DNA from: Trichlorobacter ammonificans
GTDB lineage: Bacteria > Desulfobacterota > Desulfuromonadia > Geobacterales > Pseudopelobacteraceae
DNA: 64,000 nucleotides
Direction: 5' to 3'
Assembly: GCF_933509905.1 (NCBI RefSeq)
Contig: NZ_OW150024.1
Coordinates: 2,468,001-2,532,000 of the forward strand
Shown: positions 23,985 to 45,580 of the stretch, in pieces
How the letters are laid out: the number at the start of each line of letters is the position of its first letter
Position numbering within the stretch: position 1 is the stretch's first letter
The notes under the pieces: generated by a model
Seen by the model: the letters and a program-made list of their open reading frames with translations, nothing else
Database searches by the model: none
Told to the model about the DNA's origin: nothing
Position numbers and translations under genes: made by a program

Positions 23985-24140
23985 ACCATACCGGCCTCCC
24001 ATGAGGCGGAGATCATGATGGAGATATTGAAGCACGGCAGTCATGTGGAGGTGCTTGAACCGGAGTGGCTGAGAGAAAAAGTTACACAAGTATTCATACG
24101 GCGGCATGCATGCAAGGTACAGGAGGGACAACAGAAGTGA
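23985..24140 (+). pseudogene. C-terminal remnant of a second WYL regulator
   Basis: 23985–24085 repeats 21853–21955 with few differences and encodes TIPASHEAEIMMEILKHGSH, VEVLEPEWLREK. It then runs into unrelated sequence to a stop at 24138. No upstream WYL or HTH coding sequence is present. This is a scar of duplication or recombination, and it overlaps the 5' end of the next frame. Confidence 0.8.
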
Positions 24141-26028: not shown

Positions 26029-27241
26029 TGTACAGAGATAGTATTCACCTGACAGTGCCCTTGAATGGGTCGTGATTTACGCTGCCAGTTTGTAGTCCTC
26101 AGTATCTGAATCGTCGTTCTTTGGCAAGCCGTCTATGAAAACCGTGTATGGCGTCCTGCCAAGCATGTTTCTGCCTTGGTGTGGGCGGTCGTAGTTGTAA
26201 GTCTTGAGATAGGTGTCCAGATCGGTCTGCATCTCGTCCAACGACTCGTACCACTTGGTGCGGCCCATTACCCGGAAGTGTTCGTCAAGCAAGGTTCTGT
26301 GCAGCCGTTCGACAAAGCCATTGCTCTGCGGACGTCTGACCTTGGTGGTGCGGTGCTCGATCTCTTCAAGCTGTAGGAACAGCTCGTAGGGATGATTGTC
26401 CGGCCTGCCGCAGAACTCCCTGCCATTGTCCGAGAGGATGGTGCTGATCCGGGCGTCATGTTCTTCAAAGAACGGCAGTACGTCTTCATTAAGCACATGC
26501 ACAGCAGTGACCGGTAGCTTATTGGTGTAGAGCTTGCCCCAGGCGTAGCGTGAGTAGCAATCAATGACCGATTGCAGGTAGACTTTGCCGACGCCTTTCA
26601 GAGTGCCGACAAAGAAGGTGTCCACTGCTACGAGATCGCCGGTGTGGCTGGTTTCGATGTGACGCTCCCTGAACTCAGGGCTGAACCGTTCCAAGGCCCT
26701 GATCTGCTCATCTGACAGTTCGAATGCCTGTTCCCGGACGCTCTTTTCAAGCCGCAGCATCCGTTCCTGCTTGGTCAGTAGGTTGTGCCTGTTCCAGACA
26801 CCGCGAACGCCTCCAGAGCTGACCTGGGTGCCTTTAAGGGCCAGTTCGTTGGCAACCCGCAGCGGGCCATGACCGGGATGAGCCAGGCAGTGATCCAGAA
26901 TGGCCTGTTCGACAGCTTCGTCAACCCGGTTGGGATGTGGGCCCCTGGCTCCGGGCATCCGATCAACCAGACCGGCTGAACCGTAGGTCTGATAGTTTCG
27001 ACGGATTTCATAGAACTGCTGCCGCGAATAACCCATGAGCTTGCAGGCTTTGCTGACATTCGAAAGATCGGCGGCCAACTCTAGCAAACTGAGCTTTCTT
27101 CGTGATACTTTCTCGGCGGTGGTCATACTGTTCTCCTTGATGGAAAGATTTAGTCTGAGCAACTTCATCTTTTACCATTCAAGGGCAGTATGGCCACCAA
27201 CTGAAAATGGCCAACTGTCAGGTGAATACCATCACACTACA
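26029..27241 (-). mobile_element. IS481-family insertion sequence, copy 1
   Basis: 1213 bp bounded by imperfect 28-bp terminal inverted repeats starting TGTA and sharing GTATTCACCTGACAGT (24 of 28 match). Ends were fixed by comparing the two copies: similarity stops at exactly 26029 and 27241. The left end is 2 bp after the stop of the Mrr-like gene. The right end is 4 bp before the ATG of the next gene. No target-site duplication is apparent. Confidence 0.92.
26077..27126 (-). CDS. IS481-family transposase, copy 1
   Basis: 349 residues from MTTAEKVSRRKLSLLELA with AGGAG upstream (14 further codons are open). An N-terminal HTH (ACKLMGYSRQQFYEIRRNY) precedes an integrase core with the DDE residues in VAVDTFF, ILSDNGREF and NGFVERLHRTL. 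Intact. Differs from copy 2 at only a few residues (for example LLELAADLSNVSKACKLM against LLDLAADLSNVSRACKIM). Confidence 0.95.
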   Translation of the reverse strand: MTTAEKVSRRKLSLLELAADLSNVSKACKLMGYSRQQFYEIRRNYQTYGSAGLVDRMPGARGPHPNRVDEAVEQAILDHCLAHPGHGPLRVANELALKGTQVSSGGVRGVWNRHNLLTKQERMLRLEKSVREQAFELSDEQIRALERFSPEFRERHIETSHTGDLVAVDTFFVGTLKGVGKVYLQSVIDCYSRYAWGKLYTNKLPVTAVHVLNEDVLPFFEEHDARISTILSDNGREFCGRPDNHPYELFLQLEEIEHRTTKVRRPQSNGFVERLHRTLLDEHFRVMGRTKWYESLDEMQTDLDTYLKTYNYDRPHQGRNMLGRTPYTVFIDGLPKNDDSDTEDYKLAA

Positions 27242-28118: not shown

Positions 28119-28121
28119 GTG

Positions 28122-28808
28122 ATGCAATACGAAAATTATATAAAAGATTTCCCGGCAAGATGCAGTACTTTGCTTGATAAATTTGAAGATCAAGCACGCC
28201 TACTAGAGCTAGATGTTACATTTCTATTTTCTATCGCATCCGTAGGACTAACCATTCCGATAGAGCGGTTGAAAAAACCATACATCAATGAGAAAGAGCC
28301 TGATAAAAACTCTACTCCTCATCCAGCTAATGACAGAGATAATTACCCTAATGCTAGGGATGCGATGCAAAATCTCAGACACAAAAATTTTAAGCGCTCT
28401 GAACTTTGGGACACAACAATGCAGCCTTGGTACTACGGTCGTCTGAGCTCTACTCTAGGTCCACCCGATGCTTGGCCAGAACTTTCAGAACTATCAAAAA
28501 CTTCTGAAGTACACTCTGAAACAACTGACTGTATCCTCAACCATATTAGAAATTCTTTGGCACATGGAAACATTTATACTTCAGGAAATCCAATCAAAAA
28601 AATTATCTTTCTGTCAGAATTAAGTACAGAAAAAGGTAAATTTAATTTTCTGGTCATACCGCTTTTGGGTTTCAGTAAATTTTTGCGAAACTGGTTTGCG
28701 TTCATAAATAAACTCGACATCAGTCAATCTCCTGTTCAAGGCGTCATTTATGATGATGGACAAAGAGATATGAGAATTGACTTGAGTCACCACGGCAAAG
28801 CGCAGTAA
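28122..28808 (+). CDS. HEPN-like protein
   Basis: 228 residues; ATG at 28122 (a GTG one codon earlier is also possible) after a G-rich RBS. Helical and low-GC. The segment CILNHIRNSLAHGNIYTSG (about 145–163) contains R-N-x3-H followed by GN, the HEPN RNase signature as in pEK499_p136-type proteins. HEPN ribonucleases act in toxin–antitoxin and phage-defence systems. No MNT-type partner lies beside it, and the nucleotidyltransferase at 22048 is 5 kb away. Motif seen; RNase function inferred. Confidence 0.6.
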   Translation: MQYENYIKDFPARCSTLLDKFEDQARLLELDVTFLFSIASVGLTIPIERLKKPYINEKEPDKNSTPHPANDRDNYPNARDAMQNLRHKNFKRSELWDTTMQPWYYGRLSSTLGPPDAWPELSELSKTSEVHSETTDCILNHIRNSLAHGNIYTSGNPIKKIIFLSELSTEKGKFNFLVIPLLGFSKFLRNWFAFINKLDISQSPVQGVIYDDGQRDMRIDLSHHGKAQ

Positions 28809-29806: not shown

Positions 29807-31019
29807 TGTAGTGTGATGGTATTCACCTGACAGTTGGCCATTTGCAGTTGGTGGCCATACTGCCCTTGAATGGTAAAAGATGAAGTTGCTCAGACTAAAT
29901 CTTTCCATCAAGGAGAACAGTATGACCACCGCCGAGAAAGTATCACGAAGAAAGCTCAGTTTGCTAGACCTGGCCGCTGATCTTTCGAATGTCAGCCGAG
30001 CCTGCAAGATCATGGGCTACTCACGGCAGCAGTTCTATGAAATCCGTCGTAACTATCAGACCTACGGCTCAGCCGGTCTGGTTGATCGGATGCCCGGAGC
30101 CAGGGGCCCACATCCCAACCGGGTTGACGAAGCTGTCGAACAGGCCATTCTGGATCACTGCCTGGCTCATCCCGGTCATGGCCCGCTACGTGTTGCCAAC
30201 GAGTTAGCTCTTAAAGGTACCCAGGTTAGCTCAGGAGGCGTTCGCGGAGTCTGGAACAGGCACAACCTGCTGACCAAACAGGAACGGATGCTGCGACTTG
30301 AAAAGAGCGTCCGGGAACAAGCATTCGAACTGTCCGACGAGCAGATCAGGGCCTTGGAACGGTTCAGCCCTGAGTTCAGGGAGCGTCACATCGAAACCAG
30401 CCACACCGGCGATCTCGTCGCCGTGGACACCTTCTTTGTCGGCACCCTGAAAGGCGTTGGTAAGGTCTACCTGCAGTCAGTCATCGACTGCTACTCACGC
30501 TACGCCTGGGGCAGGCTCTACACCAACAAACTGCCGGTCACTGCCGTGCATGTGCTCAATGAAGACGTACTGCCGTTCTTTGAAGAACATGACGCCCGGA
30601 TCAGCACCATCCTCTCGGATAATGGCAGGGAGTTCTGCGGCAGGCCGGACAATCATCCCTACGAGCTGTTCCTACAGCTTGAAGAGATCGAGCACCGCAC
30701 CACCAAGGTCAGACGTCCGCAGAGCAATGGCTTTGTCGAACGGCTGCACAGAACCTTGCTTGACGAACACTTCCGGGTAATGGGCCGCACCAAGTGGTAC
30801 GAGTCGTTGGACGAGATGCAGACCGATCTGGACACCTATCTCAAGACTTACAACTACGACCGCCCACACCAAGGCAGAAACATGCTTGGCAGGACGCCAT
30901 ACACGGTTTTCATAGACGGCTTGCCAAAGAACGACGATTCAGATACTGAGGACTACAAACTGGCAGCGTAAATCACGACCCATTCAAGGGCACTGTCAGG
31001 TGAATACTATCTCTGTACA
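29807..31019 (+). mobile_element. IS481-family insertion sequence, copy 2
   Basis: 1213 bp, nearly identical to copy 1 and in opposite orientation. The left end begins TGTAGTGTGATG inside hipA; the right end closes at TACA (31019). Flanks show no matching target duplication, either within this copy or crosswise with copy 1. Confidence 0.92.
29922..30971 (+). CDS. IS481-family transposase, copy 2
   Basis: 349 residues, intact, with the same HTH and DDE positions as copy 1 (VAVDTFF, ILSDNGREF, NGFVERL). AAGGAG precedes the ATG. Two intact, nearly identical transposases 2.6 kb apart imply recent activity. Confidence 0.95.
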   Translation: MTTAEKVSRRKLSLLDLAADLSNVSRACKIMGYSRQQFYEIRRNYQTYGSAGLVDRMPGARGPHPNRVDEAVEQAILDHCLAHPGHGPLRVANELALKGTQVSSGGVRGVWNRHNLLTKQERMLRLEKSVREQAFELSDEQIRALERFSPEFRERHIETSHTGDLVAVDTFFVGTLKGVGKVYLQSVIDCYSRYAWGRLYTNKLPVTAVHVLNEDVLPFFEEHDARISTILSDNGREFCGRPDNHPYELFLQLEEIEHRTTKVRRPQSNGFVERLHRTLLDEHFRVMGRTKWYESLDEMQTDLDTYLKTYNYDRPHQGRNMLGRTPYTVFIDGLPKNDDSDTEDYKLAA

Positions 31020-31370: not shown

Positions 31371-34300
31371 TTAACGCACCTCCAGCATTTCCGCCTCCCC
31401 TTCACTGCGAAGCTGCGGGTTGTACATCGGCCAGATGGCAACAGGCAGTGCAGTTACCTTCCCTTTCAGCTCCGGGCGGATGACGTAGCGGAACTGATGG
31501 CTGCCGGCAGGCAGCGCCTGGATGAACCAGGCCAGATAGGTATCGCGTTGCTCCCGATGGTCGTACCAGCCACGGTAGTATGATTCAGCGGCATAGCGGG
31601 GGTCCAGTTCGGCAGGGCGCAACTCGAAACCGGCCGGTAGATAATCTTCCAGGATGACATACTCCTGAACCGTGTCGCTCTGCACCTCAACCCGCACCTC
31701 AAGATCATCACCCGGCTGCACTGCTTCACCGGCCTTTAACGGCAGGTATTCGTGGCGCCATCTGCCGTTGTCGTTGACTGATTGTATCCGGTAGTAGCTC
31801 CGCTTCAGCCCAAGCCGGCTGTTTTTGACAGGCTGGTCAAGGGGGACGCGGTACGCAAGGGTTGCGCCAAGCCAAGCGATGCCGCTATCGCCGCTTTTTT
31901 CCAGCACAAGGCTGTTACCTCCTTTTTGAGCCGGCAACGTCAGGCCAGCCGTGCCGTCTACCAGTCTCCCCTTTTCCACCCGGTAGCTCTGGGCCGCTGC
32001 CCCGTTTACCGTCAGGCGGGCGGTGTAGTTTGCGTCAAGCTGGCCGGTTGCGGCGACAAAGTCTGCCAGGGCCAGCACACCGGCGGCAGAGGCCGCTGTG
32101 GTGCGCCACCAGCCATCCTGCTGGTTACGCGCAAGATAGCGGGCCAGCCGAGGAAGAGCCGGATCATCGGGCAGAATCCTGCTTAATGCGGAAAGCAGGG
32201 CTGCGCTGCCTTCAATGGATGATCGGCCAAGACGCCAGCCATCCTCCGGTTCCGGGAGCCAGGCCGCCTCGCTGTCCCGTGCAAGCCGCTTTGTCAGCTT
32301 CTGCAGAAGTGCCGCAGCCGCGGCTTTTTGTCCACGGTTTGCCAGGGCATCGGCAACAGCGATACGGGCTGTGGCCGTCAATGTATCTTCTTGCGCCAGA
32401 AGCGCTGCCTCCACCTTCGGGTCGGTGCCGCCATGGGCGGTCAGGGCGCGGTACAAAAAGGCGGCCTGTTCAGGTTCGGCCTGTTTCAACTGCTCCGTCA
32501 GCGCCTCTTTGCCACGCTCCAGCATCCCTTGTTCCGGCACGACCCCGGCAGCCATTGCCTTTGCCAGCCCCTGCATCACCAGGGCGGTCAGGTAGCGGTC
32601 GCTGCTGCCATTTTTCCACCAGCCCCAGCCACCGTCTTCCTGCTGCATCTCTGCAAGCTGCTTCAGACCCTGGCTAATAATGACTGGCAGCTTCTCTTTG
32701 ATGGATGCGGGGAAACGCTCTGAATCGTCTTTGAGCAGATTCATGGCGTAGGCGGCAGGGACAAAGCGGGCAATGGTCTGCTCGGTGCAGCCGTAGGGGA
32801 AGCTGATCAGCCGCGACAGGGCCGGTACCAGGTTGCCGGCAATGGCGGGGGCGAAGCTGATCCTGAGTATGCCGCTTTCAGGCTCCGCCGGGCCGGGCAG
32901 GAGCAGTTCCGCCTGCTGACGCCCGCTGGCCAGTGAAATGGCCGTGGCCTGTTCACGCTTGAGGGAGCGGGGTAACACCGGGAATTCCACCTCCATGCTG
33001 TCTTTCCCCTCACTGCCCAGTGCGGAAAGCTGCAAGGTTGCCGGACCAGCTTTCTCAGCCGCTACCAGCACCTCTTTTTTCAGCGCTCCGTTGGCAGGGA
33101 GCGTGCCGGTAAAGCCGGTCTCCCCCAAAAGCGTCAGACCGGTTGCGGTAAACCGCCCCTGCACCTGCTGCTCCTGTGCTGCGGCATCGTTGAGTATCCC
33201 CGGTATCTCCAGCCTGTCTCCCGCCAGCATGAAGCGGGGCACGGCCAGCCGGGCCATGAACGGCAGACGGCTGATGAAGCTGGCCTGGGCAGAGCCGAAA
33301 AAGCTGTCCGCTGTATGCCCGACAGCGGTTGCCCGCCATCTGGTCAGGTTGTCCGGCAGCTCAGCCTCTGCACTTACCACCCCGTGATCATTGGTTGCAA
33401 GCAGGGGAAACCAGGCAGCGGTATCCTTGAACAGCTTGCGCACCTTGATCCCGTGCAGATCATCGTTACCGGCCAGCCGGGCCAGATCCTTTGCTGCTCC
33501 GCCAAGGTACATCCGCGGGAAGGAGTAGATGGTCTGCACCAGATGATCGCGGCGGCCACGGAAAAAACGGTAGATCTCTTCGCGGATCTCAGGGGCTACG
33601 GCAAAGATGGCTTCGTCAACAACGGCAAGCGACAGCTCAGCCTGCACCGGTTTCCCCTCTGCCTCTGCCTGTACGCTGATCTTTGCCCGGTCCCCCGGCG
33701 CATAGCTCTCTTTTTCAGGGATTACGGTCAGCTTTAACCTGCCCGGCTGATGCTCCACCTTCAAGAGCCCCTGCTGGTGGAAGAAGCGGCCAGCGGCCAC
33801 CATGCTGATTGAGACATGGATATTGGGGGCCAGCTCTTCGGTAACCGGAATCTCGATTACCTGCACCGCCTGATTGACCGGAATCGTCCGGCTCTGGTGG
33901 ATTCTGCGCCCCTCCAGGGTGAAGAGCAGCGTCCCCCCCTGGGCCGGTGTGCGCAGGATCAGCCGGGCGGTTTCACCGATCCGGTAGCTCTTTTTGTCAA
34001 ACTCCGCCTCAAGCTCGCGGTAGCCGCTTGCCCATCCTTCCCCCTGCTGCCAGACCCAGGCGCCGGTTTCGGCAACACTGCGCCGTTTGGCATCATCAAA
34101 GGTCTCGGCCAGCAGACGGTAATAGCCCGGCTTCGGGAAGCCGTAGGCAAAACGGGCCACGCCCCCGTTACCGGTGCGCCCTTCCAGGGTCGTGATCCTG
34201 TTCCAGCCAAACGTTTTACTCTTTTTGTCGTACTGCTGCTGCTCAACCAGCACGGTGACCGCACGGTTTGGCTGCTGCTCCCCCTGCCATGTCTGCACCG

Positions 34301-36485
34301 TGGCTGCAAAACCCGCCTGCTGGTTCGGCTTCAGCAGGTACTGCTCGCTTTTGAGGCTGACAGCCATCTGCGACGGCACAACCGTTACCCTGGTCGAAGC
34401 TGAGACCTGACGGCCGGAAAGATCGGTTACCTCGGCCTCAATGCTGTAGAAAAGCGGCTTTTCATGGCTTCCGGCAGGCACGGTGAAGACGGCCTCCCCG
34501 GCCTGGTCAAGCAGGGCTTCCCCTTCCCCCAGAAACTCATTGTAGCCGCCAAACTGCTGCTCCTCCCCAAAGCTGCCGCCCCCCTGCTCATCCCGTTGCC
34601 AGGGCTGGCTGTAGACCCGCCAGACCAGCTTACCGCCTGCCGCCGGAGCGCCAAAGTAATAGCGGGCAGCAAGCGCAAGCGGTATCTGCTCACCGGGCAG
34701 CACAAACTGCTTATCCGAGGAGAGCTTCACCTCGAACTCCGGTTTGCGGTACTCCAGAACCTGGAAACTGCCCTGCCAGGCACCGCCGTCAGCAGTGGCG
34801 ACAATGCTGTAATGCCCAAGAGCCGCCCCCTGCGGCAGGGTAAACCGTCCGCTGAAAGAACCGCTGGCAGAGCTGGTGACGCTCTCTTCAAACAGTGCCG
34901 TATCGTGGGGATCAGCAACCCTGATCGCCACCTTTGTTACGGCAGGCAGCCGGTAGTCATCACCAGCGTGCTGACGCAGCACCCCTTTGTAAAAAACGGT
35001 CTGGCCGGGACGGTAGGCAGTGCGCTCTGTGTAGAGATACCCCTTCAGGTCAGCGGTTTTCCGCTCTGCGGCAGACTCTGAAGCGGCCAGGGGCAGGATC
35101 GCCAGGCTGTTGCCATGCTGCCCCACGACCCGGCTGCCTGACCGCGTAACATTCCAGTCGGCAGTGCCGTTCGTATCGGTGGTGACAACCTGGTGCCCCT
35201 TGTCCCCCGACAACCGTACCCCGGCAAGGGGTTTGCCGCTTTTTATGTCAACCGCCTGGATAAAGGTGGTGTCCGGCGCCGATTTGGCCACCAGCGCCAG
35301 ATTTGTGGCGACAACAGCGGCTTTTGCCGTGGCCTGCCCGCTGTGCAGATGCAGCAGATAGACACCGGCAGGCAGGGGCGGCAGTTTGAAGCGGGCCTGG
35401 CTGCGGTGCCGGTTTTTAGTTTTTTTAAGGGTGACCTTAAAGGTTTGCACTGATTTCAGCCCTGCACTCTCAAGCGCTTCCGGTTTGCTGAAATCAATCT
35501 CCCCCCGTATCACCCGCTCTGCCGGAATCTGAAAAATGGTGGCTTGCACCTGTTCGGTCCAGAGGCCGTTGGCCCGGAGTGTGACCTCCTTGTCGGCCAG
35601 GATGGTGTCGCCGTACAGCTCAAGCTGCAGTTCAGGGGGGGCAGGGGTTGCATCCAGCGTCAGGTTCCCTTTTTCACCTTCGGCAAGAGTGATGCGCTTT
35701 TCTGCCCGCATCAGCCGCTCATCAGCAAACGAGACGGTATAATCGCCAGGGGGCAGCCCCCCCAGGGTCAGGCTGCTGTTCTCCTTAAACCGCTCCATCC
35801 GCCAGACGCTTTTACCGCTGAGAGTAACCTGAGCACCTCGCAATGAGCTGATATGGCGGTTGGGGAGAAGTTTCCCGGCAACCTCGAGCGAGGCGGCGCG
35901 GCGGATAATCAGATTCCCCATCTGCAACTGTTTACCTGGCGCAGGCTGGGGATACTGGGATTTTTCAAACACAAAGCCGGGCTGCTCAAGGTTCAGGTCA
36001 TGGCCGCCGCTCTCAACATCCTCAAAGGTAAAAACCCCGTTCTTATCGGTAACAGCGCTGAAAAACCGGTCCAGCGTCAGCTTGAAACCGCTGTGCGCCG
36101 TGCCGGCGGCATCGGTCAGTCTGCCGGAAAGGGTCGCCCCTTTGCGCAGCCAGACGGTCGTACCCTGCTTCGGCTGCTCATTCAGGTAAAGGTAGTTGCG
36201 GCTGGTTCCCAGCCCTTTGGACACAACCAGAAACTGGTAGGCGCCCCTGGGGAGCGTCACAGCGGCATTGCCGCCTGCATCGGTTCTGACCGCCATACGC
36301 TGCCTGGGGCGCTCGTCCCCCTCCATAAACCTGATCTCCGCACCGGCGACAGGCTGGTTGCTGTCGGCAGACAGTACCTGTACCTGCACCTTGTAGGCCG
36401 GCGCAGCGGCTTTGGCGGCATGCAGCGGGGGGCAGAACAGCAGGGAAAGACTCACAAGAGAGAGGGCAGCAAGCAGGCGGCGCAT
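31371..36485 (-). CDS. Alpha-2-macroglobulin family protein with thioester
   Basis: 1704 residues, the usual size for bacterial macroglobulins, which trap proteases in the periplasm. A Sec signal peptide (LLAALSLVSLSLLF, cleavage near LHA-A) leads into carnitine/CarboxypepD-like Ig repeats (about 30–290) and MG domains. A bait-region candidate lies near the middle, followed by the A2M core with the thioester motif GCTEQ at about residue 1230 (YGCTEQTIARF), an alpha-alpha toroid rich in GGWGWWKNG-type repeats, and a receptor-like C-terminus. The lipobox of YfhM-type proteins is absent, so it is probably soluble. It is the last gene of a cassette with AMMECR1-like and VanW genes and lacks the usual pbpC neighbour. 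Confidence 0.92.
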   Translation of the reverse strand: MRRLLAALSLVSLSLLFCPPLHAAKAAAPAYKVQVQVLSADSNQPVAGAEIRFMEGDERPRQRMAVRTDAGGNAAVTLPRGAYQFLVVSKGLGTSRNYLYLNEQPKQGTTVWLRKGATLSGRLTDAAGTAHSGFKLTLDRFFSAVTDKNGVFTFEDVESGGHDLNLEQPGFVFEKSQYPQPAPGKQLQMGNLIIRRAASLEVAGKLLPNRHISSLRGAQVTLSGKSVWRMERFKENSSLTLGGLPPGDYTVSFADERLMRAEKRITLAEGEKGNLTLDATPAPPELQLELYGDTILADKEVTLRANGLWTEQVQATIFQIPAERVIRGEIDFSKPEALESAGLKSVQTFKVTLKKTKNRHRSQARFKLPPLPAGVYLLHLHSGQATAKAAVVATNLALVAKSAPDTTFIQAVDIKSGKPLAGVRLSGDKGHQVVTTDTNGTADWNVTRSGSRVVGQHGNSLAILPLAASESAAERKTADLKGYLYTERTAYRPGQTVFYKGVLRQHAGDDYRLPAVTKVAIRVADPHDTALFEESVTSSASGSFSGRFTLPQGAALGHYSIVATADGGAWQGSFQVLEYRKPEFEVKLSSDKQFVLPGEQIPLALAARYYFGAPAAGGKLVWRVYSQPWQRDEQGGGSFGEEQQFGGYNEFLGEGEALLDQAGEAVFTVPAGSHEKPLFYSIEAEVTDLSGRQVSASTRVTVVPSQMAVSLKSEQYLLKPNQQAGFAATVQTWQGEQQPNRAVTVLVEQQQYDKKSKTFGWNRITTLEGRTGNGGVARFAYGFPKPGYYRLLAETFDDAKRRSVAETGAWVWQQGEGWASGYRELEAEFDKKSYRIGETARLILRTPAQGGTLLFTLEGRRIHQSRTIPVNQAVQVIEIPVTEELAPNIHVSISMVAAGRFFHQQGLLKVEHQPGRLKLTVIPEKESYAPGDRAKISVQAEAEGKPVQAELSLAVVDEAIFAVAPEIREEIYRFFRGRRDHLVQTIYSFPRMYLGGAAKDLARLAGNDDLHGIKVRKLFKDTAAWFPLLATNDHGVVSAEAELPDNLTRWRATAVGHTADSFFGSAQASFISRLPFMARLAVPRFMLAGDRLEIPGILNDAAAQEQQVQGRFTATGLTLLGETGFTGTLPANGALKKEVLVAAEKAGPATLQLSALGSEGKDSMEVEFPVLPRSLKREQATAISLASGRQQAELLLPGPAEPESGILRISFAPAIAGNLVPALSRLISFPYGCTEQTIARFVPAAYAMNLLKDDSERFPASIKEKLPVIISQGLKQLAEMQQEDGGWGWWKNGSSDRYLTALVMQGLAKAMAAGVVPEQGMLERGKEALTEQLKQAEPEQAAFLYRALTAHGGTDPKVEAALLAQEDTLTATARIAVADALANRGQKAAAAALLQKLTKRLARDSEAAWLPEPEDGWRLGRSSIEGSAALLSALSRILPDDPALPRLARYLARNQQDGWWRTTAASAAGVLALADFVAATGQLDANYTARLTVNGAAAQSYRVEKGRLVDGTAGLTLPAQKGGNSLVLEKSGDSGIAWLGATLAYRVPLDQPVKNSRLGLKRSYYRIQSVNDNGRWRHEYLPLKAGEAVQPGDDLEVRVEVQSDTVQEYVILEDYLPAGFELRPAELDPRYAAESYYRGWYDHREQRDTYLAWFIQALPAGSHQFRYVIRPELKGKVTALPVAIWPMYNPQLRSEGEAEMLEVR

Positions 36486-36592
36486 ACAAGACTCCTTTAA
36501 TCACCCGGCAGTATGTACAGGACAGCCAGGTTGCCGTACATAGTAATTTTAATCATGTTTCCAGGCGCTGCGTGGGGACGGGCCAGGATAGA

Positions 36593-37198
36593 TCAATCCC
36601 CTTTCTGCTGTCCACTTCTGATCCACTCCGCCTGAAACCGGTACAACCGCACCCCTGCGCTCTGTTCATGGAGCCCCAGCCGGCGCAGGGCAGAGCGCCA
36701 GGCATAATGGGCGGTTCTGGCCTCTCCGGGCACGATGGCCACACCGTGTCCATCCCCCCGTTCCAGCAGTAGCCCCTCATGGTGCGGGTTGATCAGCCGC
36801 CAGTCATGAACCGGCCGGGGTGGCTGCGGAAAGGTGATCTGAATCTGGGCTTCCTGAGCCAATGCCGGAGTAAGCTGTGCAGAACGGGGGTCGTGTATCA
36901 GCGCCAGACGGATATTGTCAGCGATCTCGTCACTGAGCCTGCTGTGGCGGGGGGTGAAGCTGCCAAAGCAGGCCATGACCTTCCCTTTGACAAAAAAGGT
37001 GACAAAGCAGGCCCGCTGTTGGCTGGCTACCGCCATATCCGGCGCGGCAGGGGGCGGTTCTTGAACAAGCCGGGCACGCATCACCCGGCGGGCATGGTCC
37101 AGCAGAAGCTGCTGCTCTCCCGGTGCCATTGGCTCAGCCGCTGCAGTGGTGGCAAGGGTAAGGCACAGGATACCCATGATGAGCCGGCTCAGCTTCAT
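36593..37198 (-). CDS. AMMECR1-like protein with signal peptide
   Basis: 201 residues. A signal peptide (LIMGILCLTLATTAAAEP) is followed by an AMMECR1-type fold: CFVTFFVKGKVMACFGSF, a DEIADNIRLALIHDPRSAQL helix-plus-loop and IQITFPQPPRP, then GLLLERGDGHGVAIVPGEAR. AMMECR1 proteins are normally cytoplasmic and of unknown activity, so export is unusual. It overlaps the vanW stop by 4 bp and lies 107 bp before the macroglobulin gene. The family call rests on pattern similarity. Confidence 0.7.
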   Translation of the reverse strand: MKLSRLIMGILCLTLATTAAAEPMAPGEQQLLLDHARRVMRARLVQEPPPAAPDMAVASQQRACFVTFFVKGKVMACFGSFTPRHSRLSDEIADNIRLALIHDPRSAQLTPALAQEAQIQITFPQPPRPVHDWRLINPHHEGLLLERGDGHGVAIVPGEARTAHYAWRSALRRLGLHEQSAGVRLYRFQAEWIRSGQQKGD

Positions 37199-37968
37199 GG
37201 CGCTTCTGTGCTGATGATCCGGCTGGGGGGTGGGTAGGTGTCCCGTGAAATCAGTTCTGTCCGGCTGGTGCCGTTTCTGGTGGTGATCCGCACGGTTTCG
37301 GTTGCAAAGCCGCTTCCCCCCGGCTGTTCCGCTGTGCCGGCACCTTTGCCCAGCAGCACCGTGTCCGGCAGAAGCCGTGTACGGCTGACCCTGATCTCGG
37401 TGCTGAACGGTTTTTCCCTGGTCGCGTAAAATGATGTGGTGATGCGGTTTTGGTCTACGGACATCCGCAACTGCAGCGGCTGCTGGTGGGGATTTTTTAG
37501 CTTTAGGTCCTTGCGCCAGGAGGAGATGGTGGCATCGCGGCCAGGCGGTATATGCCCCACGGCGCGGGAATGGGGGTGCCGCTCCACCACCTGCATCCCG
37601 GCCAGAAGCCCGGCGTTGTAGATGGTGGAGGCAAGCTGGCAGATACCGCCGCCCGGCGTATCCAGCATCCGGCCGCTGGCGGTGATCATTGGCGCGGCCT
37701 GATACCCTTTGCCGGTATCCCTGGCGCCAACCAGTTGATTGAAGCTGAACATCCCCCCCGGCGGTATGATGGTGCCGTCAAGGTCACGGGCTGCCGTGCT
37801 GCTGTTATGCCGCTGCTCTTGCGAGCGGAGGTGCAGTGAGGTGCTGTACCCCCCCCAAAGGTGGCTGAAGCTGTTTTCCAGGGCTGAAGATGCCCGTCCG
37901 GTGCAGATGCAGAGCAGCAGAGCGACTACAAGGACAACGTTCGGGCAGAGGCGTGTACGGTTGTTCAT
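37195..37968 (-). CDS. VanW family protein
   Basis: 257 residues from MNNRTRLCPNVVLVVALLLC, an N-terminal signal or anchor segment; the frame extends 98 codons upstream but that part overlaps flxA. The VanW domain core is intact: FSFNQLVGARDTGKGYQAAP, GGGICQLASTIYNAGLLAGM, then ERHPHSRAVGHIPPGRDAT. VanW is found in some vancomycin-resistance clusters and many unrelated genomes; its role is not established. First of the exported three-gene cassette. Confidence 0.88.
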   Translation of the reverse strand: MNNRTRLCPNVVLVVALLLCICTGRASSALENSFSHLWGGYSTSLHLRSQEQRHNSSTAARDLDGTIIPPGGMFSFNQLVGARDTGKGYQAAPMITASGRMLDTPGGGICQLASTIYNAGLLAGMQVVERHPHSRAVGHIPPGRDATISSWRKDLKLKNPHQQPLQLRMSVDQNRITTSFYATREKPFSTEIRVSRTRLLPDTVLLGKGAGTAEQPGGSGFATETVRITTRNGTSRTELISRDTYPPPSRIISTEAP

Positions 37969-38153: not shown

Positions 38154-39008
38154 TCAGAACTCCTGCGGCATGGCCTTCACCTGGGCCGCCGTAAAGACCG
38201 GGCCGTCCTTGCAGACGTAGACATTGCCCACGTTGCAGCGGCCGCACTTGCCCAGGCCGCATTTCATGCGGTTCTCAAGCGTCGTGTAGACCTGGGTGTC
38301 GCTGAAGCCGAGTTTTTCCAGCACCGGCAGGGTGAACTTGATCATGACCGGCGGCCCGCAGACCAGGGCGATGGTGTTCTCCGCCGACGGGGCCGCCTCT
38401 TCGAGGATGGTGGGGACGAATCCCACCTTGCCGTCCCAGGCAGGGCCGTTGCCGCCGGGGTCCACGGTCTTGACCAGCCGCACGTCGCTGCGCTCCTGCC
38501 ACTCCGTCAGTTCCCGCTTGTAGACCAGGTCCGCCTCGGTCCTCGCCCCGTAGACGATGGTGATGTCGCCGAACTTGTCCCGCCAGTCCAGGCAGTTCCA
38601 GATCAGGGTGCGGAGCGGCGGCAGGGCGATGCCGCCGGCCACGAACACCAGGTTTTTGCCGAAGAACTGCTCGACGGGAAAGGAGTTGCCATAGGGGCCG
38701 CGTACCCCCATGGTGTCTCCCACCTCCAGGCGGCGCAGCGCCTCGGTGACCCGCCCCACGGAGCGGAAGCAGCACTCAATGTACCCCTGCCGGGTGGGGG
38801 ATGAAGCGATGCAGAAGGTGGATTCCCCTGCCCCGAAGGCGGAGTATTCGGCAAACTGACCGGCCCGGAAACTGAAGCTGTCGCGCAACTGCTCATCCTG
38901 AAATACCAGCCTGAGGGTGCGCACATCCGGGGTTTCGTCGATGATCTCCTCGACGGTGGCCAGTTGGGGAAGATAGATATTGCTGCCCGCGCTACTGTTC
39001 GAACACAT
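38154..39008 (-). CDS. flxA: FAD/NAD(P)-binding oxidoreductase, FlxA-like
   Basis: 284 residues of the ferredoxin-NADP reductase/PyrK type. FAD-binding beta barrel (FRAGQFAEYSAFGAGES, FCIASSP), NAD(P)-binding half (LVFVAGGIALPPLRTLIWN, VYGARTEADLVYK, ALVCGPPVMIKF) and a C-terminal [2Fe-2S] motif CGLGKCGRCNVGNVYVC. In Flx–Hdr complexes this subunit takes electrons from NADH. It overlaps the preceding orf by 1 bp and is last in the cluster. AsrB or hydrogenase-gamma naming would also fit the domains; context decides. Confidence 0.85.
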   Translation of the reverse strand: MCSNSSAGSNIYLPQLATVEEIIDETPDVRTLRLVFQDEQLRDSFSFRAGQFAEYSAFGAGESTFCIASSPTRQGYIECCFRSVGRVTEALRRLEVGDTMGVRGPYGNSFPVEQFFGKNLVFVAGGIALPPLRTLIWNCLDWRDKFGDITIVYGARTEADLVYKRELTEWQERSDVRLVKTVDPGGNGPAWDGKVGFVPTILEEAAPSAENTIALVCGPPVMIKFTLPVLEKLGFSDTQVYTTLENRMKCGLGKCGRCNVGNVYVCKDGPVFTAAQVKAMPQEF

Positions 39009-39385
39009 CAGGTTGCTTCCTTCCCGCCAAGTTTGGCGGCCAGCTCGGTAAACGCCGGCCCCTTGACCTTCAGCTCCACCGGCCGGTTGTTGTCGCCGAA
39101 GCCGATGGTCACCAGCCCACCCACCAACTGGTGCTCCATTTCCGCAAACAGCACCGAGCGCGGGTTCACCAGCAGGTTGCCGGACTGCACAAAGCCCCGC
39201 TGCTTCAGCTCGGCGATAAAGGCCTCCTGCTCCGCCCTGGCCACCTTCTTGAAGAGCTGCTTCCTGACCACGGCACCGTCGAACCAGACATCCATCATCC
39301 GGCTGTTGTCGCTCACCAGCGGGTTATCTTCCGGGGTGGTCATCTGGGCCGCCGCCACCCGATCGCAGTTGATGAATCGTTCCAT
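39008..39385 (-). CDS. Conserved-looking 125-residue protein in the flx cluster
   Basis: No cofactor motif, signal or membrane segment. It has a helical middle (QEAFIAELKQRGFVQSGNLL) and an apparent beta region (VTIGFGDNNRPVELKVKGPAF). It lies between flxB and flxA, 6 bp after flxB and overlapping flxA by 1 bp, so it is firmly embedded in the operon and may be an accessory subunit or assembly factor. Family not recognised. Confidence 0.7.
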   Translation of the reverse strand: MERFINCDRVAAAQMTTPEDNPLVSDNSRMMDVWFDGAVVRKQLFKKVARAEQEAFIAELKQRGFVQSGNLLVNPRSVLFAEMEHQLVGGLVTIGFGDNNRPVELKVKGPAFTELAAKLGGKEAT

Positions 39386-39391
39386 GGCTCC

Positions 39392-40396
39392 CTACTTTGT
39401 GCTGATTTCGTCAACAATGGCGGCGATATCGATCCCCACCGGGCAGAGGCGGATACAGCGGCCGCAACCGGTGCAGAGGGTCTGGCCGAACTTGTCGTCG
39501 TAGTATTTGAACTTGTGCATGATCCGGTTGCGGTAGCGCTTGGGCTGCTGGTCCCGGGGGTTGTGGCCCGAGGCGTGATGGGTGAACTTCCAGAAGCCGC
39601 AGGCATCCCAGTTCTTGCGCCGCTTGCCGGCCTTCTCGGTCCCTTCGTCCACGATGTCGAAACAGTGGCAGGCCGGGCAGACAAAGGCGCAGAGGCCGCA
39701 GCCGACGCAACGGGTAGCGATGCCGTCCCAGGCCGGGTCTTCGAAGTGCGTGTCCAGCCAGGCCTTGACCCTGGCCAGGTCGATCCGTTCCACCTGCGGT
39801 TCGGCCAGGGGGAGCGGCTCGTGGTCCGATGACGGGGAGAACAGCCCCCGATGCTGCTGCAGCAGCGCCTCCCCTTTTTCGGTGCAGGCAGCGCAGCGGT
39901 ATCCGCCGCCGCTCATGGGTGTCAGAAACAGATCACTTCCGGCTGTGGCGGCTGGCGACAGCCCCACGGCCGTGCAGAAGCAGGCATCGTCGGCACTGGT
40001 GCAGGCCAGGCCGATGACGGTGGTCTTGCGGCGGCGTTCCAGGAAGAACTCGTCCTGGTAGTCCCAGGAGAAGACCGCGTCCAGTACCGGCACGGCGGCG
40101 GCGTCGCAGGGGCGCACGCCGAACAGCACCGTTTCCGGAAACAGGGCGGGATCGACGGTCTGCAGCGTCACCTGCTGCCCTTCCTTGCGGTAGGACATGA
40201 TATCCTCGCACAGGGGAAAGAACGCCTCCTTGCCGGAGCGGCGGGGCAGCTGGTCAAGGACCAGTTCCGCGGCATTCTGCAGCGGCTCGTACAGGACGGT
40301 GCCGGCGTTCAGCCGAGGAGCCACCACCCGCGTACCGGCGGCAATCAGGGTATTCAGGAACGTGTTCAGATTATGTGCTGAGATGAAGGTGTGCAT
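39392..40396 (-). CDS. flxB: 4Fe-4S dicluster electron-transfer subunit, FlxB-like
   Basis: 334 residues from MHTFISAHNLNTFLN, with AAAGG 6 bp upstream. It is of the AsrA/hydrogenase-beta type: an N-terminal domain with FGVRPCDAAAVPVLD and cysteines at ACTSADDACFCTAVG, then two ferredoxin motifs, CVGCGLCAFVCPACHCFD (about 233–250) and CTGCGRCIRLCPVGID near the C-terminus. It should relay electrons between FlxA and the Hdr module. Confidence 0.82.
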   Translation of the reverse strand: MHTFISAHNLNTFLNTLIAAGTRVVAPRLNAGTVLYEPLQNAAELVLDQLPRRSGKEAFFPLCEDIMSYRKEGQQVTLQTVDPALFPETVLFGVRPCDAAAVPVLDAVFSWDYQDEFFLERRRKTTVIGLACTSADDACFCTAVGLSPAATAGSDLFLTPMSGGGYRCAACTEKGEALLQQHRGLFSPSSDHEPLPLAEPQVERIDLARVKAWLDTHFEDPAWDGIATRCVGCGLCAFVCPACHCFDIVDEGTEKAGKRRKNWDACGFWKFTHHASGHNPRDQQPKRYRNRIMHKFKYYDDKFGQTLCTGCGRCIRLCPVGIDIAAIVDEISTK

Positions 40397-40435
40397 GGAA
40401 AACCTTTTCACTGCCGTTCCGGCAGCGGTTCGTCC

Positions 40436-41353
40436 TTATTTGATGAAGCTCTGGTCGTCCTTTTCGGTAAAGGTGGCCAGGGGACCCGTGTCGTTGACCT
40501 CAAGACCGGCCTCGTAGGCGTACAGTTCCTTCAGCTCCTTGGCCATCTTGCGGTTCAACAGGTTGAGCGGAATATCCATGGGGCAGACCCGCTCGCACTC
40601 GGCGCAACCGGCGCAACGGCCGGTCAGGTGCATGGCCCGCACCACGTGCCAGGCGAAGTTCCCGGCAGGTCGGGGGGTGGTCTCCACCATCTGGGGTTTG
40701 TTCCGGTCGCAGAGGCACTGCTCGCAGAAGCAGAACGGGCAGACCTGGCGGCAGGCGTAGCATTTGACGCACTTGCTGAACTGCTCTTTCCAATAGGTCC
40801 ACCGCTCCGCAGGGGACATGGCCTCCAGCCGGGCGATCTCGGCGCTGTAACGGGCCTCCAGTCGGGGGGGCGTCGCCTGCTGGGAGGGAAGGAAGTCACA
40901 GCCCACGGGCAGGTGGACGTCGCACTCGCGGCATTTCGGCGCAATGTTCTCCCCGGTCAGCGGCGAATCCGGCCGGATGGTGGAGGCCAGCACCCCGACG
41001 CAGGGAACCCCGATCAGGTACAGATCCTCCCGCTTCAACTGCGACTCCCCCATCAGCCCCACCAGGGCCTTCAGGTCGCACCCCTTGACCACGATGCCGA
41101 TCCGGCCGGTCTTGGGGATCTCCTTCTTGGCCTTGGTCAGGTAAACGGCGAGGTTATTGACGCAGGATTCGCTGAAGATCAGCCGGGAGGCATCCCCGGC
41201 ACTGGTGATCACCACCGGCTGGGTCGCGCCGGTACGGCGGGCTGCTGCGTAGCCGACCACGGCGGAGACGGCGCCGTCGGCGAGAATCCGCTGCGCCTCC
41301 TCGCGAATCGCTTCGCTGATGGAGCTGTAGATGGTTGTATCGATGGTAGTCAT
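40436..41353 (-). CDS. flxC: Iron–sulfur subunit, FlxC-like
   Basis: 305 residues from MTTIDTTIYSSISEAI; the frame upstream of this ATG is repeat sequence. Part of the N-terminal half resembles the coenzyme-F420 hydrogenase beta-subunit region (IGIVVKGCDLKALVGLMGE, LIGVPCVGVL). Then come three cysteine clusters: CRECDVHLPVGC, CVKCYACRQVCPFCFCEQC, and CAGCAECERVCPMD. Sits between flxD and flxB in the cluster. Confidence 0.78.
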   Translation of the reverse strand: MTTIDTTIYSSISEAIREEAQRILADGAVSAVVGYAAARRTGATQPVVITSAGDASRLIFSESCVNNLAVYLTKAKKEIPKTGRIGIVVKGCDLKALVGLMGESQLKREDLYLIGVPCVGVLASTIRPDSPLTGENIAPKCRECDVHLPVGCDFLPSQQATPPRLEARYSAEIARLEAMSPAERWTYWKEQFSKCVKCYACRQVCPFCFCEQCLCDRNKPQMVETTPRPAGNFAWHVVRAMHLTGRCAGCAECERVCPMDIPLNLLNRKMAKELKELYAYEAGLEVNDTGPLATFTEKDDQSFIK

Positions 41354-41392
41354 AAACGGTTCCGGTATCCCTAACGGGTTGTCGAAAAACTC

Positions 41393-41512
41393 AGGTTGTT
41401 CAAAAATAGTCAGATCGTCGCACCCGGAGCCCCCCCGAGGAGGCGTAGCTGCGCTACGCCGCACAAGGATGGTTTCGAGGACGGCGGCGAGATGGCTGTT
41501 TTTCAACAACCT
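41393..41512. repeat. 120-bp palindromic (MITE-like) element
   Basis: Its ends are imperfect inverted repeats: AGGTTGTTCAAAAATAG at 41393 and, read from the other end, AGGTTGTTGAAAAACAG at 41512. The similarity continues for about 29 bp. A central hairpin pairs GGCGTAG (41442–41448) with CTACGCC (41454–41460). It fills the flxD–flxC gap, ends 1 bp from the flxD stop codon and carries no gene. Confidence 0.8.
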
Positions 41513-41513
41513 G

Positions 41514-42014
41514 CTAAATCTGGTTATAAGCTTCCTGCAGTTCCGGCGTGTCGATGGCCCCGGACCACTGTTCCTCCAGGGCCAGCTCCCGGAACTCCCG
41601 CATCGGTCCCATGGCGCGCACCCGCTCGGTCAGTTCGGTGACCACCTCCACCCATTTCCCCCCCTCGGCGGCGGAGACCCAGGAAAACTGCAACCGGTTC
41701 AGGTCCACGCCGACGAACTCCAGCAGTTTGCGGAAGGCGGCGAAACGGCGCCGGGCATGGAAATTACCGGCAATGTAGTGGCAGTCGCCGGGATGGCAGC
41801 CGGACACCAGCACGCCGTCGGCCCCCTGCTGGAATGCCTTGAGGATGAACACCGGGTCGATACGGCCGGTGCAGGGAAACTTGAGCACCCGCACGTTGGC
41901 CGGATACTGCATGCGGCTGGTGCCGGCCAGGTCGGCCCCGGCGTAGGTGCACCAGGTGCAGACAAAGGCGATGATCTTCGGTTCGAAGTCGTGTTTCTGT
42001 TTTTCAGGGTGCAT
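41514..42014 (-). CDS. flxD: MvhD/FlxD-like [2Fe-2S] electron-transfer subunit
   Basis: 166 residues with the MvhD-family cysteine motifs FVCTWCTYAGADLAG (about 17–31), FPCTGR and SGCHPGDCHYIAGN. MvhD passes electrons to HdrA in methanogens, and its homologue does so in Flx–Hdr. It lies 57 bp downstream of hdrA. Confidence 0.9.
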   Translation of the reverse strand: MHPEKQKHDFEPKIIAFVCTWCTYAGADLAGTSRMQYPANVRVLKFPCTGRIDPVFILKAFQQGADGVLVSGCHPGDCHYIAGNFHARRRFAAFRKLLEFVGVDLNRLQFSWVSAAEGGKWVEVVTELTERVRAMGPMREFRELALEEQWSGAIDTPELQEAYNQI

Positions 42015-42071
42015 TCGTAATTCCCTTGTATGGCTAGTCGGACAAGTCTGACCGGTCGGACCTGTCCGATT

Positions 42072-44069
42072 TTAGAGCGCCTCAATCATGGCCACGATCT
42101 GCTCATCGGTGTAGCCGTCCAGTTCCACCGACTTGGACGGGCACGTAGCCTGACAGGTGCCGCAGCCGCCGCAGACACCGGGGTTGACGTAGGCCACCAC
42201 CTTGACCAGATTCCCCTGGCGGTCGCGGATTTCCTTCTCCTCCACCGCGCCGTAGGGACAGACCTTCTTGCAGTAGAAGCAGGCAACGCAACCGGCCTCT
42301 TTGACCTTGGCCACGATCGGCTCCCGCTCCAGCTTGTCCTTGGCAAAGAGGGTCATCACCTTGGCGGCGGCGGCGGATGCCTGGGAGACGGTATCGGGGA
42401 TATCCTTGGGCCCCTGGCAGGCCCCGGCCAGATAAATACCGGCGGTGGCGCACTCCACCGGACGCAGCTTGGCGTGGGCCTCGGAGTAAAAGTGGTACTT
42501 GTCGTAGGAGATCCCCAGCTTCTGGGCCAGCAGGTCGGCGCCGGGCCGCGGTTGCACCGCCGTGGCCAGCACCACCAGATCGGCCTCGATCTCCACCTGC
42601 ACCCCCACGGCGATGTCGCTGCCCATCACCACGACCTTGTCCCCCTTCTGGTACAACCGGGAGACCATGCCGCGGACATAGACCGCCTCTTCCTCCTCGA
42701 TGGCGCGCCGCCAGAACTCGTCGTAGCTCTTGCCCGGCACCCGGGCATCCATGAAGAAGACATAGGCCTGGCCGTCATGCACCTTGTGCTTGTAGAGCAT
42801 GGTGTGCTTGGCGGTGTACATGCAGCAGATCTTGGAGCAGTAGGAGATCCCCTTTTCCCGCGCCCGGGAGCCGACGCACTGGATGAAGACCACCTGTTTC
42901 GGCTCCCTGCCGTCGGAGGGACGCAGGATCTTGCCGCCGGTGGGGCCGGAAGCCGAGGCCAGGCGCTCGAAGGTCATGCCGTCGATGACATCGGGGATTT
43001 TGCCGTGGCCGAACTCGCCGTACCCTTTGATAAACGAGCCCTTGGGCTTTTCGCTGATGTTATAGAGGTCAAAGCCGGTGGCCACCACGATGGCTCCCAC
43101 CGGTTCCACCACCAGCCGGTCCTCCTGCTCGTAATCCACGGCGCCGGGGCCGCAGACCTTCTGGCAGAGGCCGCACTTGCCGGTTTTGAACTTGGTGCAG
43201 TGTTCCCGGTCGATGACCGGGGTGTTGGGCACGGCCTGGGGGAACGGCACGTAGATGGCCGGCCGCATCCCCAGGTTGCAGTCGAAGCTGTTGGGGATTT
43301 TTTTGATGGGGCACTTCTCCATGCAGACCCCGCAGCCGGTGCATTTCTGCTCGTCAACCGAGCGGGCCTTCTTGCGGATGGTGACCTGGAAGTTGCCGAT
43401 GTAGCCGTCCACCTGCTCAACTTCGCTGAAGGTGTGAAGGGTAATATTGGGATGATTGGCAACATCCACCATCTTGGGGGTCATGATGCACTGGGAACAG
43501 TCCAGGGTGGGGAAGGTTTCCGAAAGCTGGGCCATGTGGCCGCCGATGGACGGCTCCCGCTCCACCAGCACCACCTGGTGGCCGGCGTCGGCTATATCCA
43601 GGGCAGCCTGGATACCGGCAATACCGCCACCGATGACGAGTGAGCGCTTGGTGACCGGCACGGTGATGGTGGGGAGCACCCGGTTCTTCTTGACCCGCTC
43701 CACCATCATGCCGACGATTTCTATCGCCTTTGCCGTGGCCTCGTCCCTGTTCTCGTGAACCCAGGAGCAGTGCTCGCGAATGTTGGCCATCTCACAGAGG
43801 AACGGGTTGAGTCCCGCCGCCTCCACCGCCTTGCGGAAGGTCTTCTCGTGCATCCGGGGAGAACAGGCGGCAACCACCACATGGGAGAGACGCTGCTCCT
43901 GGATGGCCTTTTTCAGCAGCCCCTGCCCCGGGTCGGAGCACATGTACTTGTAGTCGGTGGCGAAGGCCACGCCGGGCAGCTTCCCGACCTCGGCAGCCAC
44001 CCGCTCCACATCAACGGTCCTGGATATGTTCTCGCCGCAATGGCAGACAAATACGCCGATTCGTGACAT
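42072..44069 (-). CDS. hdrA: Heterodisulfide reductase subunit A homologue
   Basis: 665 residues, the flavoprotein where bifurcation is proposed to occur. It starts MSRIGVFVCHCGENISRTVD, followed by the FAD-binding GGGIAGIQAALD (about 146–157) and a cysteine cluster at LDCSQCIMTPKM. Then come a ferredoxin motif (CTGCGVCMEKCPIKK), a further CGLCQKVCGPGAVD motif and two C-terminal clusters (CVACFYCKKVCPYG, CGGCGTCQATCPS). Its start abuts the hdrB stop with no gap. Confidence 0.93.
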   Translation of the reverse strand: MSRIGVFVCHCGENISRTVDVERVAAEVGKLPGVAFATDYKYMCSDPGQGLLKKAIQEQRLSHVVVAACSPRMHEKTFRKAVEAAGLNPFLCEMANIREHCSWVHENRDEATAKAIEIVGMMVERVKKNRVLPTITVPVTKRSLVIGGGIAGIQAALDIADAGHQVVLVEREPSIGGHMAQLSETFPTLDCSQCIMTPKMVDVANHPNITLHTFSEVEQVDGYIGNFQVTIRKKARSVDEQKCTGCGVCMEKCPIKKIPNSFDCNLGMRPAIYVPFPQAVPNTPVIDREHCTKFKTGKCGLCQKVCGPGAVDYEQEDRLVVEPVGAIVVATGFDLYNISEKPKGSFIKGYGEFGHGKIPDVIDGMTFERLASASGPTGGKILRPSDGREPKQVVFIQCVGSRAREKGISYCSKICCMYTAKHTMLYKHKVHDGQAYVFFMDARVPGKSYDEFWRRAIEEEEAVYVRGMVSRLYQKGDKVVVMGSDIAVGVQVEIEADLVVLATAVQPRPGADLLAQKLGISYDKYHFYSEAHAKLRPVECATAGIYLAGACQGPKDIPDTVSQASAAAAKVMTLFAKDKLEREPIVAKVKEAGCVACFYCKKVCPYGAVEEKEIRDRQGNLVKVVAYVNPGVCGGCGTCQATCPSKSVELDGYTDEQIVAMIEAL

Positions 44070-45532: not shown

Positions 45533-45580
45533 ATACCTCACCCAATCCGCGGGGAATAGCTCTGCCTTCGTGACGTTCTA

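Follow-up and report, generated by a model that had tools for sequence, protein, structure and literature searches.

The macroglobulins of bacteria are known from two kinds of gene system. In type II (Mag) operons the alpha-2-macroglobulin (A2M) has partners of the DUF1175, DUF2138 and DUF2300 families, and in type I systems an A2M with a thioester is encoded beside PBP1C, a class A peptidoglycan synthase. The type I proteins were proposed to form a joint periplasmic defence, in which the A2M acts against proteases that enter the periplasm while PBP1C mends the wall (PMC5764988); this idea of cooperation rests on gene neighbourhood (PMC5764988 and PMC7554673). For the type II system of P. aeruginosa, the former source describes the Mag proteins as shown to form a complex (PMC5764988). 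Here, we analyze a locus in a 64,000-nucleotide stretch of the genome of Trichlorobacter ammonificans (contig NZ_OW150024.1, positions 2,468,001 to 2,532,000; hereafter the window) in which the companions of a thioester A2M are a VanW-domain protein and an AMMECR1-like protein. This cassette of three genes is conserved as a unit within one bacterial order, where VanW and AMMECR1 appear to stand in the place of PBP1C, and we suggest, tentatively, that it serves in the response to damage of the periplasm.

The function of the AMMECR1 fold is, to our knowledge, unclear. L,D-transpeptidases make 3-3 cross-links from existing tetrapeptides. Some VanW proteins are enzymes of this kind, and those of C. 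difficile have a triad of cysteine, histidine and a small residue (PMC12729407).

A three-gene cassette conserved within one order

The sequence-only reading of the window had described three coupled minus-strand genes with signal sequences, the last of them encoding a thioester macroglobulin of 1704 residues. The genes, their strand, the macroglobulin's length and thioester and the hydrophobic N-termini were all borne out; the overlap, however, is confined to the VanW/AMMECR1 pair, and the A2M gene lies 107 nt away. The order of the genes on the minus strand (window 31371-37968) is VanW, AMMECR1-like, A2M:

37195..37968, minus strand: VanW-domain protein, 257 aa (Pfam PF04294), putative L,D-transpeptidase
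37195..37198, minus strand: ATGA overlap of the VanW stop and the AMMECR1 start, 4 nt, likely translational coupling
36593..37198, minus strand: AMMECR1-like protein, predicted to be exported, 201 aa (Pfam PF01871), of a distinct subfamily by its sequence
36486..36592, minus strand: spacer from AMMECR1 to A2M, 107 nt
31371..36485, minus strand: thioester (CTEQ) A2M, 1704 aa (Pfam)

For VanW, the mechanically predicted open reading frame (ORF) starts at 38262; the start at 37968, taken from the sequence-only reading, gives a signal-peptide-like N-terminus and fits the orthologues.

A chance neighbourhood can be rejected, as the three genes recur together across the order. Among its 141 genomes, VanW is found in 26 and the exported AMMECR1 (strong matches, at least 115 bits) in 26; both are present in 25 and neither in 114 (Fisher p 1.9e-25, kinship ignored). 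The exceptions are G063, where VanW is cut by a contig end, and G126, which has AMMECR1 and in which no VanW was found. Nor is the adjacency a peculiarity of this genome, an outcome that would have told against the grouping: 24 of 26 neighbourhoods, the window among them, agree in the order and strand of the three genes, although six of these contain a cut gene (by contig ends in L039, L044, L045 and L055, by the limits of the extracted stretch in L035 and L036). Of the 24 loci that have both VanW and AMMECR1, 21 show the 4-nt overlap of these two genes, which lie 12, 24 and 57 nt apart in the other three. An overlap of 4 nt between AMMECR1 and A2M is seen in L042 and L049 only; that of 77 nt in L054 involves an over-long predicted start. 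In 16 of the 24 neighbourhoods no ORF of at least 80 aa separates AMMECR1 from A2M, and in 8 there is such an ORF. Genome G127 has VanW and AMMECR1 adjoining and the A2M on another contig, an arrangement that points to AMMECR1 as the partner of VanW.

Gene trees of 19 loci (L055, with its incomplete VanW, was left out and the cut L035 kept) share 11, 12 and 13 of 16 splits in the comparisons among the three genes, whereas 500 relabellings gave an average of fewer than 0.3 common splits and a maximum of 3. This agreement fits genes that have long been inherited together, perhaps in large part simply along the host lineage. The VanW profile and alignment omit L039 (broken by N) and L055 (cut), and the A2M alignment omits the cut proteins of L035 and L036 (extracted stretch) and of L039, L044 and L045 (contig ends).

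The range of the cassette, as far as it was followed, lies within the order. In the 277 genomes of the class, the order included, strong matches to the exported-AMMECR1 profile fall in the same 26 genomes, and in a 395-genome sample of the phylum the VanW (E 1e-10) and AMMECR1 (E 1e-15) profiles each match only the window's own genome (G000) and another of its genus (G138). A scan of a contig database for the exported AMMECR1 family returned 23 loci, assigned to Geobacteraceae, Geobacter, Trichlorobacter, Pelotalea, Desulfuromonadales and Deltaproteobacteria, with Trichlorobacter thiogenes and Pelotalea chapellei as named carriers of the cassette type; a scan with a single protein in place of the profile found no match. 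Beyond the order, no cassette marker was found in the class and phylum samples, and the contig scan, which alone reached other phyla, used strict patterns that do not exclude an occurrence there.

The surroundings of the locus are of various kinds. Upstream of VanW in the window is a run of oxidoreductase genes of the heterodisulfide-reductase/MvhD type (38154-45541; FlpD/MvhD, CCG, 4Fe-4S and FAD/NAD oxidoreductase domains), apparently unrelated to the cassette. Downstream of the A2M are a 116-aa ORF that matches no family and then an IS481 transposase gene (29880-30971, its family assigned by scan), whose relation to the cassette is not apparent. A near-identical transposase gene lies in opposite orientation at 26077-27168; between the two is a sub-threshold HEPN (pEK499_p136) match (28119-28808), and an Mrr-type endonuclease gene (24065-26026) adjoins the stretch that they flank. 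The genes that lie between AMMECR1 and A2M in L033-L039 differ by genome, those scanned including RhuM, HSDR_N-like, Mrr endonuclease and AAA/DUF4143 genes. A promoter scan gave one sigma-70-like site, which equals the chance expectation. The three cassette proteins matched none of the PADLOC families (E 0.001), and a catalogued anti-phage system was accordingly rejected.

Macroglobulins with VanW and with PBP1C

The cassette A2M contains the Pfam domains MG2, A2M_BRD, A2M, TED_complement, bMG3, bMG5 and bMG10, with the bait-region domain at residues 826-962, CarboxypepD_reg-like stretches near the N-terminus and the thioester motif CTEQ at C1233-Q1236. By profile, its nearest solved structures are those of E. 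coli YfhM (4rtd and others). The CxEQ motif is present in all 20 orthologues that extend far enough to include it (4 more are cut before that point) and invariant in the 19 proteins of the alignment, as in a type I A2M. The second mark of a type I system, a PBP1C gene beside the A2M, is lacking here, where the neighbours are VanW and AMMECR1; in this genome the PBP1C models give only weak matches (best E 7.3e-51) and none over the cut-off, in agreement with the sequence-only reading. A type II operon does not fit either, the thioester being present and both DUF1175 and DUF2138 without a match in the genome; DUF2300, which that reading had also counted as absent, was not searched for.

The bMG10 domain marks 32 A2M genomes among the 141 of the order, and 24 of these 32 have VanW. 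Six others (G023, G045, G052, G055, G065 and G066) have a PBP1C-like gene adjoining the A2M and no VanW; the PBP1C-like match exceeds the curated cut-off in five, and in G045 it is cut by a contig end. The remaining two, G126 and G062, have neither partner, the A2M of G062 running off its contig. PBP1C over the cut-off occurs in five genomes of the order only, and never together with VanW in the same genome (0/141). VanW is present and a bMG10 match lacking in G063 and G101 only, and in both of these a contig end interrupts the cassette. Because six A2M genomes of the PBP1C type are without VanW and 24 of the 32 have it, the VanW-AMMECR1 pair appears to stand in the place of PBP1C. By its sequence, the cassette A2M is a lineage separate from the A2Ms that accompany PBP1C in the same order, to which it shows about 21-27% identity in aligned pieces.

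Within one genus both arrangements are met. The whole cassette is present in G069, and G066, which has the A2M-PBP1C pair, retains a C-terminal relic of the exported AMMECR1 (L058:9572-10042); the stretch surrounding this relic contains neither VanW nor a cassette A2M. We read this single case as one module having replaced the other in this genus.

Two further observations concern the same genes. A short AMMECR1 relic in G102 (L062:9604-9726) lies beside HemW-like and 2Fe-2S genes, and in L044 and L043 the cassette sits beside a gene related to that relic's neighbours. The match to the class A PBP model TIGR02073, of about 350-400 bits in most genomes of the order, is missing from the complete genome of the window (best E 7.3e-51) and from a minority of the remainder, G126 and G131 among them; in the window's genome a PBP1A-type gene may have been lost or have diverged.

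Predicted properties of the cassette proteins

All three proteins of the window begin with a hydrophobic stretch. A simple scan for hydropathy over roughly 70 N-terminal residues, used in place of a dedicated predictor, finds a strongly hydrophobic stretch in 25 of 26 AMMECR1, 23 of 24 VanW and 24 of 24 A2M orthologues; the misses are the AMMECR1 of L055, whose over-long start places the stretch further in, and the VanW of L039, a fragment without its N-terminus. The A2M thus has a predicted signal peptide without a lipobox, and no lipobox pattern was seen in the first 60 residues of any of 24 A2M or 24 VanW proteins (one of the latter being a fragment). A lipobox-like pattern in 2 of 26 AMMECR1 proteins (L055, within the over-long start, and L057) led us to reject a lipoprotein nature as a general feature of this family. 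Given the hydrophobic N-termini and the general lack of a lipobox, the three are most likely soluble periplasmic proteins. The export of the AMMECR1-like protein claimed by the sequence-only reading is therefore retained as a prediction.

That reading's assignment of this protein to the AMMECR1 family withstood the profile search (PF01871, E 9.4e-21, 74.5 bits against a cut-off of 25). It is also upheld by an AlphaFold model made from 24 sequences (mean pLDDT 90.8), whose five significant Foldseek matches are all chains of 1vaj, 1zq7 and 1wsc, which we take to be AMMECR1-family structures although the structure listing calls them uncharacterised. Against 1vaj, Foldseek gives 1.0e-10 and VIA-align a Z of 16.8 (rmsd 3.4, 175 aligned); the other two entries reach Z 14.2 and 13.0 and the next entry 5.3. 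The sequence profile, too, weakly matches 1zq7 (0.0027).

The exported protein nonetheless differs from the cytoplasmic type. The window's own genome holds a separate cytoplasmic-type AMMECR1 (189.6 bits, no N-terminal hydrophobic stretch). Compared with that protein and three others of the order (L031, L032 and L059), the exported group lacks LRGCIG and LPQV...WD; an ACxG-type motif stands in place of the former and a PxEA[RK]T-type motif in place of the latter in 26 of 26 members. The profile of the exported group scores at least 267 bits in 26 of the 277 class genomes; the partial relics of G066 and G102 score 121.7 and 65.9 bits, and none of the remaining matches listed exceeds 52.1. From this score gap we infer that, on sequence, the exported AMMECR1 is a distinct subfamily. 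A mis-assigned cytoplasmic AMMECR1 was rejected, as the genome has its own cytoplasmic copy and the groups split by score. An AmmeMemoRadiSam system was likewise rejected: the match to TIGR04335 (AmmeMemoRadiSam protein A) reaches 52.4 bits against a cut-off of 99, and the genome's sole Memo match (C1:1975803) is more than 500 kb from the cassette.

The VanW protein matches PF04294 (E 3.8e-43, 146.5 bits). It scores 73.7 bits against the model of true glycopeptide-resistance VanW, whose cut-off is 365, and was rejected as a genuine member of that group. Both C110, the sole invariant cysteine, and H133 are invariant in 23 of 23 orthologues, and the GGGICQ and PHSR stretches are kept in all 23 that hold the region (24 were checked, the other being a fragment). 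The protein thus has the VanW domain with the cysteine and histidine expected of a VanW-type L,D-transpeptidase. Their invariance is in line with the Cys-His-small-residue triad of the C. difficile enzymes, by analogy with which C110 and H133 would be the catalytic residues (PMC12729407). Residues 186-257 of the predicted structure align with the G5 structure 4fzq (Foldseek 7.1e-5; VIA-align Z 7.1, a middling value, rmsd 4.1, 72 aligned). The C-terminal part (about 186-257) thus resembles a G5 domain in the model, although at E 0.01 it matched no G5 sequence profile.

A possible function and its relation to described systems

We propose, with a confidence that falls somewhat short of even, that the cassette is a periplasmic damage-response module. 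The soluble, thioester-type A2M would trap proteases that pass the outer membrane. VanW, which its G5-like part may attach to the wall, would act as an L,D-transpeptidase that restores peptidoglycan cross-links, closing breaks by 3-3 cross-links; it would do for the cassette A2M what PBP1C is thought to do for the A2M of the E. coli type. The exported AMMECR1, nearly always found with VanW and usually encoded by an overlapping gene, would be an accessory that most likely activates VanW, chaperones it or presents its substrate. The role in periplasmic defence or surveillance of the wall that the sequence-only reading had suggested was already a reasonable supposition, and it gains strength from the exchange between VanW and PBP1C.

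A number of observations weigh against this proposal. The co-occurrence statistics ignore kinship, and what the trees show is mainly that the genes descended together. In 7 of the 10 other same-genus neighbourhoods, 0.7-7.5 kb with other genes separates AMMECR1 from the A2M, which in those loci is not tightly coupled to VanW-AMMECR1. Such loci, like the unlinked A2M of G127, would be expected if VanW and AMMECR1, the tightest pair, served peptidoglycan housekeeping or stationary-phase remodelling and the A2M were a mere co-expressed neighbour with no part in a joint defence. We consider this improbable, as VanW and PBP1C are mutually exclusive among the 32 A2M genomes and no genome of the order was clearly seen to have VanW-AMMECR1 and lack A2M, the candidates G063 and G101 being cut at the cassette.

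The enzymatic part of the proposal meets difficulties of its own. The window's genome has two YkuD proteins, so that L,D-cross-links could be made without VanW. Confidence in the VanW model is lowest at residues 131-150 (pLDDT block means of 41-46), which hold the putative catalytic histidine, so the geometry of the active site cannot be judged from it. No solved structure matches the VanW part by sequence, and as residues 34-183 of the model this part aligns only to ribosomal proteins (60S/80S structures; Z 5.9-6.4, under the level that the tool treats as meaningful and perhaps only a common arrangement). Structural alignment found no fold relation between VanW and the YkuD enzymes, though one may exist. 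Some VanW proteins, moreover, are without L,D-transpeptidase activity (PMC12729407). With the predicted G5-like fold, this last point would suit a wall-binding protein that docks the A2M and AMMECR1 to peptidoglycan and has no transpeptidase activity; we regard this as the most doubtful of the alternatives, the strict conservation of GGGICQ and PHSR being better explained by catalysis than by docking.

The role of AMMECR1 is the least certain link of the damage-response proposal, because G126 (85% complete) has AMMECR1 and A2M, lying apart and with different AMMECR1 neighbours, and no VanW was found in it. This argues against AMMECR1 serving VanW only. AMMECR1 might instead serve the A2M as a periplasmic maturation or guard factor, for example in forming or protecting the thioester, with VanW as a looser tie to the wall. 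The presence of AMMECR1 with A2M in 25 genomes, the state of G126 and the invariance of two AMMECR1 cysteines (C64 and C77, 26 of 26) all favour such a role. Both cysteines occur, however, in the genome's own cytoplasmic AMMECR1 and therefore are not an export-specific adaptation; none of the six PBP1C-type A2M genomes has an intact exported AMMECR1 (G066 has its relic), and it is with VanW, far more often than with A2M, that the gene overlaps. We thus judge service to the A2M unlikely, and retain an accessory role at VanW as the better explanation of AMMECR1.

A more far-reaching form of the damage-response proposal, which we hold to be rather unlikely, is that bacterial macroglobulin systems are of three kinds and the cassette is the third: PBP1C would here be replaced by a VanW L,D-transpeptidase together with a periplasmic AMMECR1 that has its own function. 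AMMECR1 would then be an activator or an enzyme acting on wall peptides, and protease trapping and re-cross-linking without a PBP would form one response. If this is true, the AMMECR1 fold gains an extracytoplasmic role, for which we found no precedent among the literature matches listed; these contained no report of VanW with A2M or of an exported AMMECR1 (subscription journals being mostly outside their coverage). 

The mutual exclusion of PBP1C-A2M and VanW-A2M in one order, the wall enzyme beside the macroglobulin being exchanged for a putative cross-linker of another type, is an independent natural test of the link between protease trapping and wall repair. The cassette gives the AMMECR1 fold a small, defined partner and places VanW proteins in the Gram-negative envelope.

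Each of the described systems resembles the cassette in part. The cassette protein shares with AMMECR1 and AmmeMemoRadiSam protein A the predicted fold and a PF01871 match over the cut-off, but it has a signal-peptide-like N-terminus, altered motifs and no Memo gene nearby. The VanW domain is common to the C. difficile enzymes LdtCd4 and LdtCd5, the glycopeptide-operon VanW and the cassette protein, in which the cysteine and histidine are invariant. The cassette VanW is short, with a signal-peptide-like N-terminus, whereas the C. difficile enzymes are membrane-attached and have PG4 domains (PMC12729407), and it lies far under the cut-off for the glycopeptide-operon protein. Like the Mag/Yfa operon (MagD of P. 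aeruginosa), the cassette would combine a periplasmic A2M with several partner genes, but its A2M has the thioester and its genome no match to DUF1175 or DUF2138. The type I pairs, E. coli YfhM/ECAM with pbpC and Salmonella Sa-A2M, differ in their partner, PBP1C in place of VanW and AMMECR1, and YfhM is a lipoprotein according to its PDB listing, unlike the cassette A2Ms (lipobox in 0 of 24). With these pairs the cassette nevertheless shares the CxEQ motif, the MG2, BRD, TED and bMG10 domains and a gene for a peptidoglycan enzyme, here a putative one, beside that of the macroglobulin.

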